This document shows positions 7,222 to 20,900 of a stretch of DNA of 34,094 nt, piece by piece (within the stretch, counting starts at the first letter, position 1; the number at the start of each line of letters is the position of its first letter). The translations under genes were made by a program, and so were the position numbers. The notes under the pieces were generated by a model. The model did not search any database and was not told where the DNA came from. It saw nothing but the letters and a program-made list of their open reading frames with translations. This DNA comes from Planctomycetota bacterium (GTDB taxonomy: Bacteria > Planctomycetota > Planctomycetia > Gemmatales > Gemmataceae), in NCBI GenBank assembly GCA_016873095.1, contig VGYC01000064.1:1-34094 (forward strand). Direction: 5' to 3'.

Positions 7222-7771
7222 GAGGACACTCCGCTGGGAAAGACCAATCACTCAATCATACTCGCAAATAGGGAAAGGCTAACCGGCGAAAAGGTTTCTC
7301 GCAAGGTCAGGCTCGGAAATGGGGCAATTTTCACCGAAGTTTCCGAATGTAACGACCGAGACACCCCCAAGCATGCGTCGCCGGCGACAACATGGCGGAT
7401 GCGATGTAATCTAGGAAAGATGGATCATTTGGGTAGATTAGCTGCTTGCGCCAAAAAATTTGGTGTCGCCGCGGTGGCATAAACCTGGCAATTCCAATGT
7501 CGACAGTCCAAGCTCTGATGATCTGAAATCTGCAATCGCCCTCTCGAGGTTTTTTTGGCCGGTCCGGATGTCGCGGCCGTCCCCAAGCGTCCAGGCCGCG
7601 CAAGCCTTCTGTCCGCAACGCGTTTCATTTTCCTCACTCCGGCGCGCGTACAATCGGAGCGAACGATTGGCCGCCGGGCGGGTTGCAGTCTATATTTGGA
7701 CGACATTTGTTTGCCCCGCGGTCTCGGATGGCCCCGTCCCTTCTCCCATTCCCGAGCGCAGGGTTTATCCA
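7222..7771. other. 550-base intergenic region with a repeat arm and a possible -10 box
   Basis: No convincing gene was seen. The minus side upstream of the transglutaminase has a TATGAT-like box near 7250. Positions 7521-7537 match 17 of 17 bases of the palindromic repeat found inside the kinase gene at 18705-18789. This is followed by a short CCTC-TC-GAGG palindrome and a run of seven T (about 7540-7557), which resembles a weak terminator on the plus strand although no plus-strand gene lies upstream. A TACAAT at 7649-7654 could be the -10 box for the gene starting at 7772, but no clear -35 box was found. Confidence 0.4.
7521..7537 (+). repeat. Partial copy of the kinase-gene palindromic repeat
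   Basis: ATCTGAAATCTGCAATC is identical to part of the right arm of the repeat at 18759-18789. No second arm was found nearby, so this is a fragment or a single-arm copy. It lies in non-coding sequence. Confidence 0.45.
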
Positions 7772-17924: not shown

Positions 17925-20900
17925 ATGCCCGACACCGCCGCCTGTGCGGATCTGCAGTTGCTCGAACGCTTTGCGATTGGCGATTTGCCGGACGCCGAGG
18001 CGGATGCGCTCGCCCAGCATGTCCTGCTTTGCCCGTCGTGCGTGGCCAGGCTGGATACGCTGAGCGGTGCCGATGGGCTGACGCTGTCCTTGGCGGGTGC
18101 GAGCGTGCCAGGCGTTCCCAGCGCCGAAGTGCAGCGGCTCATCGACGAATTGCGCACGCGCCGGCCAGCCCGCCCCGGCGAAACCACTCTGGATTTTTCC
18201 TCACCCGAGGAAGTGTCGATTGCCGAGCCGGCGCTGTCGGCCGGCAAGCTCGACTTCCTTGCTTCGGCCCAGGCCGGCGACGAATTGGGTCGCCTGGGCG
18301 CGTATCGCGTGCTCAAGGTGCTCGGCAAGGGCGGCATGGGCATGGTATTCCTCGCAGAAGACACCAAGCTGGAACGCCGGGTGGCGCTCAAGGTGATGCT
18401 GCCCAGGTTCGCCGAGAATCCCACGGCCAAGCAACGCTTCCTGCGCGAGGCCAAGAGCGCCGCCGCTCTCAAGCACGACCACATCATCACCATCTACCAG
18501 GTGGATGAGGATCGCGGCGTGCCCTTCCTGGCGATGGAGTATCTCGAAGGCCAGTCGCTCGACCAGCGGCTCAAGACCGGCCAGCCGCCCAGCGTGCAGG
18601 AGAGCGTACGCATCGGCCGCGACGTCGCCCAGGGATTGGCCGCCGCCCACGCCAGGGGACTCATCCATCGCGACGTCAAGCCGGGAAACATCTGGCTGGA
18701 AACGATTGCAGATTTGAGGTTGCAGGTTGCAGATTCCTCGGAAGGGCGGCGCGATGCAAATCTGCAATCTGAAATCTGCAATCTGCAATTTCGGGTGAAG
18801 CTCCTCGACTTTGGCCTGGCCCGGGCCCAGGCGGACGATGTGCATGTCACGCAGTCGGGGGCCATTGTCGGCACGCCGGCATACATGGCCCCGGAGCAAG
18901 CCCGCGGCGAGAAGAATGTCGATCAGCGTGCCGACCTGTTCAGCCTGGGCTGCGTGCTCTATCGGCTGTGCGCCGGCACGCTGCCGTTTCCCGGGCAGAA
19001 CACGATGGCGATCCTGATGGCGCTGGCGACGCACACGCCCCCCGTGCCGGCGGCGCTCAACCCCGAGATTCCCGGCGACCTGTCCGAGCTGACCATGCGA
19101 CTGCTCGACAAGGATCCGTCGAGACGGCCCGCTTCCGCCACGGAAGTCGTCGCCTTGCTGGGCAAGATCGAGCAGCGGCTGGCGCCGCCGGTACCGGTTC
19201 CAGCGCCGCCGCGCAGCGCCGCCGAGACGGCCATCGCGCCGGCGCCGATCAAGTTTGACTCGGAAGAACGCCCCGCGGCGGCGACCCAGAAGCCGACGAT
19301 CCCACCCTCGGCTCCGTCCCGGCGCTTCGCCGCCCGGCGCTGGCTGGTCGCCGCCGGGCTGCTGCTGGTGCTCGCGACGCTCGGCTATTTCTTCGCGGGA
19401 ACCGTGGTCCGCTTCATCTCCAATCGCGGCGAGCTGATCGTGGATATCGACGATCCCAGCATCGAGGTCACGATCAAAGGAGAAGATGTCATCGTCCACG
19501 ACCGCGACCGGCAGCGGCGTTACGTGCTCACGCCCGGCAAGGATTACGAGATCGAGGTGCGCGAATGGGGCGAGGACGGAATCCGCCTCGCAACCAGGAA
19601 CTTCACGATCGTTCGCGGTGGCAAGGAACGTCTCAGCGCGCGCATGTTGCTGGGCGACGCCGAGACGACCAGCGATCCGGAGCGCCGGGCCGCCTTCTGG
19701 GTGCTGCGGCATGGCGGCAAGGTCAAGGTCCGGCTCGCCGACGGCGGCGCGGAAAAAGTCGTGACCAGCAACGCCGCGGTGCCCCGGGAACGATTCACCA
19801 TCCGTGAAGTCGACCTCGCCGCCGGCACGGCGCCGGTGGCCGAACTCGACCGGCTTCAGGGCTTGAACGATCTTGCGATCCTGAACCTCGGTAGCATGGA
19901 ACTGGCCCCGGGATACCTTCCCGAACTGACGGGATTGCCCGCGGTGCGCGAGATCGTGCTGGCCGGCGATGGTCCTTCCTTCATATACCTGGCAACCCAG
20001 CTGCACCAGTTGCAGACCGAAGTCAGGTTGCGGCTCGTCTACTTGAAGGGCGTGCCCGAACCGGGGACCGAGGCCGATCGCAAGGCCGCGGAGTGGGCCC
20101 TGGCCCAGGGCGGCAGCGTCGAGGTGGAAAGCAATGACTACCTCGCGGCCATCAAGCCCGGCTCCGCCCTTCCGGAGGACAAGTTCCGTCTGCGCGCCAT
20201 TCGCTTCGATGCGCCGGCCATGGCGGAAGGCATCTTGTTTCCCAAGGTGAATGACGCATCGCTTGTCATCCTGAAAGACGTCCAGCATCTCAGGTGGCTC
20301 GTGCTGCACAATACCAGCGTCAGCGATGCCGGCGTCAAGCAGTTGAGCGGCTACGCAGGGCTGGCAGGGCTGGAAGCGCTCGACCTCGGCTACCTGCAGA
20401 ACATCTCCAGCGCCTGTGTGCCGAGCCTGCTTCGCTTCAAGCAGCTCTCCCGACTGAATTTCCGCAATACGAAAATCGACGACGCCGGCGTGAAGCTTCT
20501 CGTCGGCCTGCCGAAGCTGAGGGAAGTGCAGATCGGCGCTTCTCCCGTGACCAATGCGGGACTGGCCGAGCTGGCCAAGCTGCGCTTGCAAGCGCTCTGG
20601 CTTGTCGGGAATCAGAATATCAAGGCAGACAGCTTTACTTTGCTGGCCCGGTTTCGCGATCTGGAGGTCCTGGACTTGAGGCGCATCAAGAGTATGCGTG
20701 ACGAGAACATGGCCGTGATTGCCGGCATGCCCCGTCTCCGCCGCCTGTACTTCGAGGGGTCGCCGGTCGGCAACGGCGTGCTCAAGTACCTGGACAAGTT
20801 TCCTCTGACCTTGTTGCAGTTGTCGGGCACCAGCATCGACGACGACGGATTGGCCGAATTGAGTCGAATGCCATCGTTGAAGGAACTTCTTGTGGCACGA

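Follow-up and report, generated by a model that had tools for sequence, protein, structure and literature searches.

A dispersed palindromic repeat lies in frame in the beta7-beta8 loop of a planctomycete Ser/Thr kinase, a loop also occupied by unrelated repeat families

The window, that is, the whole stretch of 34,094 nucleotides analysed here (contig VGYC01000064.1 of the Planctomycetota assembly GCA_016873095.1), harbours a gene for a Ser/Thr protein kinase whose product also contains LRR-like and Laminin_G_3 matches (Pfam) C-terminal of the kinase domain (Table 1). The K, E, HRD, N and DFG residues are all present in the PF00069 match, which extends over residues 135-416 (E 5.5e-44) and spans an imperfect inverted repeat situated between the HRD and DFG codons.

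Table 1 Position of the kinase gene, its motifs and the palindromic element in the window
Feature	Coordinates	Strand	Basis
Ser/Thr protein kinase gene, 1504 aa	17901..22415	+	ORF list; Pfam
Kinase catalytic domain	18303..19148	+	Pfam PF00069 placement
HRD codons	18666..18674	+	Sequence
Strand beta7, domain residues 133-137	18690..18704	+	AlphaFold model
Palindromic element, left arm (ATTGCAG / ATTTGAG-type heptamers)	18705..18735	+	Sequence
Spacer separating the arms	18736..18758	+	Sequence
Right arm, heptamers of CTGCAAT / CTGAAAT type	18759..18789	+	Sequence
Strand beta8, domain residues 166-170	18789..18803	+	AlphaFold model
DFG codons	18807..18815	+	Sequence

The arms of the repeat (18705-18789) are 31 nt long, 84% complementary and separated by a gap of 23 nt. 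Its inverted-repeat score was 16, against a mean of 6.4 in shuffled sequences, none of which reached 16 (0/100), and a score of at least 12 was attained by just 1 of 150 control windows of 31 aa taken from the kinases of this genome. A first interpretation made from the letters alone (hereafter the sequence-only reading) had proposed that a palindromic repeat is translated in frame within a kinase domain and forms a large hairpin in the mRNA. Both proposals were supported, the former by the frame that stays open throughout the gene and by the Pkinase match running across the repeat, the latter by a computed RNA fold of -42.3 kcal/mol (z -5.5), equalled in stability by none of 200 dinucleotide shuffles; the window had no match to any known RNA family in Rfam. 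The insert peptide (NIWLE-TIADLRLQVADSSEGRRDANLQSEICNLQF-RVKLLDFG) would presumably be produced as part of the kinase. The proposed gain of about 29 residues had to be corrected: the repeat spans 85 bases, a length not divisible by three, and the segment from HRD to DFGLA comprises 52 residues in the window kinase (L164) versus 26 in the closest insert-free paralogue found (L171), a net gain of 26 residues, or 27 over the consensus of the kinase model. AlphaFold (22 sequences, mean pLDDT 84.8) yielded a confident kinase core for the window domain, in which the predicted strands beta7 and beta8 flank the insert. This agrees with the earlier placement at a loop between two strands and says little about the fold of the insert itself. 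In a close paralogue of the window kinase in the source genome, G000 (L176, C212), a stop follows NIWLE near the contig end, so the insert in its loop may be larger or may be broken.

The repeat belongs to a dispersed family, here called A, in which the left arms are built of the heptamer ATTGCAG and its variants ATTTGAG and ATTTCAG and the right arms of their complements. Arms of about four heptamers enclose a variable spacer, and whole elements measure 44-188 nt (median 84). As expected for a genomic repeat, the window copy gave 39 BLAST matches in its own genome, and a 13-mer allowing at most one mismatch was found at 95 places, versus none for the reversed control. Within the examined stretches of this genome we counted 24 clusters of at least 3 exact units, three of them being contig-end pieces (L092, L093, L094). 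Elsewhere in the window, at 7523-7536, two right-arm heptamers lie between genes next to a short T run, with no partner arm nearby. The arms of one element resembled each other slightly more than arms of different elements (0.900 vs 0.886, a value reached by 3 of 1000 shuffles), which hints weakly at a joint origin or at correction. A longer family A pattern was detected in 8 of the 59 nearest genomes (source included), all within the same family (37 genomes), and in none of the 22 nearest genomes outside it. In a draw across the phylum, 8 of 392 genomes (source included) matched at no more than one mismatch, and since these came from several other families, the distribution of family A across Planctomycetota is patchy. 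Copies in relatives (L302, L311, L312) had longer heptamer arrays or additional heptamer variants, so arm length varies between genomes.

Family A elements also lie in frame in proteins other than kinases. In the source genome, one is located in UvrA shortly past a Walker A motif (L089 2482-2577, C95) and another within the Pyr_redox_2 domain of a FAD oxidoreductase. The genome G003, from another genus, has an in-frame element in the linker that precedes the second half of CarB; in genome G035, elements are found in the HisKA domain of a histidine kinase, splitting a DUF3536, in an ABC protein ahead of its second Walker A, and in proteins of the PAS, PIG-L, FAD-oxidase and PPDK-like types, in every case in frame. 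Coding was called from the kinase profile and Pfam, since GC content at codon positions had chosen the wrong strand (e.g. L313, L303), and 6 of 20 proteins (seven frames) that had no match in Pfam were left uncounted as coding (L298 with two frames, L072, L087, L075, L287 776-1618 and L322).

Kinase domains contained 9 of the 24 family A clusters of the source genome. The beta7-beta8 loop is occupied in the window kinase and in those on contigs C129 and C255. In the kinase on C7 (L073 2557-2788) the two arms are divided between loops, the left one lying at alphaD and the right one at beta7-beta8, and what separates them is the native catalytic segment. The remaining copies (C232, C369 and the contig ends C76, C114 and C116) are in the alphaD loop of near-identical paralogues or pieces of them. 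The C129 kinase shows one stop within the matched span and an uncovered N-lobe, so it may be broken. Among the matches listed for G003, 4 of 11 clusters fell in the beta7-beta8 loop (L313, L314, L320, L321), where they add some 21 to 27 residues. The sequence-only reading had suggested testing whether further copies cluster at the same loop of other kinases, and the C129, C255, C7 and G003 copies give this test a positive outcome. By contrast with G003, none of the 31 clusters among the matches listed for G035 was in this loop, one of them (L301) being in a different kinase loop according to the kinase profile, and none of the 20 regions among the matches listed for the distant genomes G202, G073, G146 and G308 was in it either; a G308 kinase close to an element had an unrelated loop sequence. 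Although C7 fits a pattern of arms placed around native sequence, its arms lying in two loops, we dropped this pattern as a general rule, as the spacers of G035 share a consensus (judged by eye) and seem to be part of the element.

A kinase profile built for this purpose gave 131 distinct domains in the examined stretches; the 154 listed Pfam kinase matches include fragments of a single domain as well as matches outside those stretches. The beta7-beta8 loop was covered in 127 domains, 29 of which carry inserts of at least 10 residues there. Inserts of this length were less frequent at alphaD (8), at model position 151 (5) and at five other positions (1 each). An inverted-repeat score of at least 12 was reached by 7 of the 29 beta7-beta8 inserts, 2 of the 8 at alphaD and 0 of 10 elsewhere (1/150 in the controls). 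Twelve of the 29 matched multi-copy repeats; the other 17 were left outside the repeat-derived count, and some of them resemble decayed copies by eye. Only 3 of the 12 belong to family A, and 9 come from four multi-copy families unrelated to it: B, made of TTCATCA heptamers (13 places, 4 in the loop), C (6 places, 1 in the loop), D (33 matches, 3 in the loop, from one paralogue set) and E (16 places, 1 in the loop). The HRD, K, N and DFG residues were kept in all 29 insert-bearing kinases, and the beta3 K together with the alphaC E in all 26 in which that region was covered. Unrelated inserts of similar length at this place had been considered evidence against the sequence-only reading. They do occur in paralogues and relatives, and, with 9 of the 29 long inserts coming from other multi-copy repeats, they widen that reading more than they refute it: the loop is not specific to family A. 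Outside the phylum, in a Dehalococcoidia genome, one kinase (L051) carries 21 nt inserted in frame at this loop that two closely similar kinases (L052, L053) do not have. The insert may be a repeat; few matches to parts of it were found among the loci examined.

Were insertion even along the genome, about 0.02 family A copies would be expected in the beta7-beta8 loop (computed with 26 clusters; 24 are listed), and the observed copies therefore require tolerance of the loop, targeting to it, or both. The presence of unrelated families at the same loop favours tolerance. We consider it likely that a dispersed palindromic element landed in frame in the beta7-beta8 loop of the window kinase and was kept there through the tolerance of the loop, and that such events have recurred with several families. 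Under this explanation, palindromic elements of several families would have spread widely by some route, a family A element inserting in frame in the window gene. Most insertions within genes would be lost, those in essential protein cores being purged by selection, and the survivors would be found where a loop tolerates 20-35 residues (about 26 in the window). Once kept, the inserts would probably be neutral and later decay toward ordinary loop sequence.

Targeting, in which the DNA of the loop, by its sequence, by microhomology or through recombination among kinase paralogues, would direct palindromic elements to this place, seems unlikely to us. It would account for a recurrence far above the even-insertion expectation, and several inserts of G003 and G000 follow a native-looking LLQ, whose possible coding sequence CTGCAG resembles the heptamer (noted by eye and uncounted). 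Nevertheless, families with different ends share the loop, for which tolerance is the simpler explanation, and a general hot spot is at odds with the lack of loop copies among the matches listed for G035 and the four distant genomes. Nor were flanking direct repeats, such as the target site duplication expected of a MITE, above chance: for k-mers shared by the two sides of 54 elements the value was 2.96, against 3.07 in shuffled partners, a weak test given the fuzzy arm ends. Simple copying between paralogues is made less likely by the window and C129 elements, whose spacers are identical at only 12 of 24 positions (50%), below the 61% and 70% identity of their flanks.

The same pair bears on whether a single old insertion was inherited by the paralogues or spread among them by gene conversion. 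The window and C129 inserts are equal in length, with arms 75% and 91% identical, and the family D copies of C114, C232 and C369 do belong to near-identical paralogues and represent one event. However, in a FastTree phylogeny of 128 domains (loop removed, support values not considered), family A copies appeared in three separate parts of the tree: paralogues with a family B insert, another insert or none sit between the window kinase and C129, and C255 and C7 are placed apart from both. Considering also that other families fill the same place, we find a single old insertion quite improbable as a general account, and read the window and C129 inserts as probably separate insertions, an old shared one being possible for this pair.

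We also asked what the inserts might contribute. As seven is coprime with three, units of seven bases give a peptide period of seven residues in whichever frame they are read, and the model of the window insert contains two short helices; both features would suit inserts retained for altering kinase regulation or partner choice, for instance as a helical hairpin. Most of the insert, these helices included, was however modelled at pLDDT below 50, and the insert sequences are diverse, with many of decayed appearance. We attach no special meaning to the heptamer being open in all six frames, since half of all 7-mers (8260/16380) are equally open and family B is closed in one direction. A recruited function is accordingly very unlikely in our opinion. 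A bolder version of the preferred explanation, in which the beta7-beta8 loop is a landing pad for at least five unrelated palindromic families, two of them heptameric, that supply helical modules which may alter regulation, also appears unlikely. An assembly artefact fusing halves of different kinases at a shared repeat is scarcely credible, even in a genome of 548 contigs with C76, C114, C116 and C369 among those ending at a repeat, because in several genes, from more than one genus, the reading frame continues through complete domains, and the window repeat lies well inside its 34 kb contig.

A single genome here offers a natural series of repeats, from fresh to apparently decayed, in the same defined loop of one family of enzymes. 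The long-standing question of whether new protein sequence can come from selfish repeats thus becomes directly testable, by comparing insert-bearing with insert-free kinases. In the open-licence literature, where absence is weak evidence, we found no description of the family A heptamers or of this kinase loop as a recurrent site.

In-frame palindromic repeats as such are of a known kind, the Rickettsia palindromic elements (RPE) being an example. According to PMC10969869 and PMC2996958, RPE and the related protein-coding palindromes of Wolbachia and Methanocaldococcus jannaschii are short, dispersed and in frame in unrelated protein genes, reportedly at non-structured segments. Family A, likened to RPE by its properties rather than by sequence comparison, is also palindromic, dispersed in many copies and in frame in unrelated protein genes; it differs in that the conserved part is the heptamer arms, with a variable spacer between them, and in its Planctomycetota host, and here several unrelated families converge on one loop of one protein family. 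With the GTAG/CGTC REPs associated with RAYT, family A shares the short palindromes, the many copies and the occasional location inside genes, and in recB of two Xanthomonas species REPs reportedly occupy roughly the same position (PMC3733652). Within 12 nt of the ends of 54 elements, a fixed end tag was not apparent (GTAG, 3 on the left and 0 on the right; CGTC, 2 and 1). Within the family sample, Y1_Tnp matches (Pfam) occurred in all 8 genomes that bear the repeat and in 22 of the 33 others, and none of the places listed had a Y1 transposase gene adjoining an element. Finally, PARCEL, according to PMC2996958, is likewise palindromic DNA read as protein, in the form of tandem 25-residue repeats of membrane or surface proteins; family A shares with it the translation of palindromic DNA, but consists of single inserts in enzyme loops instead of tandem repeats.
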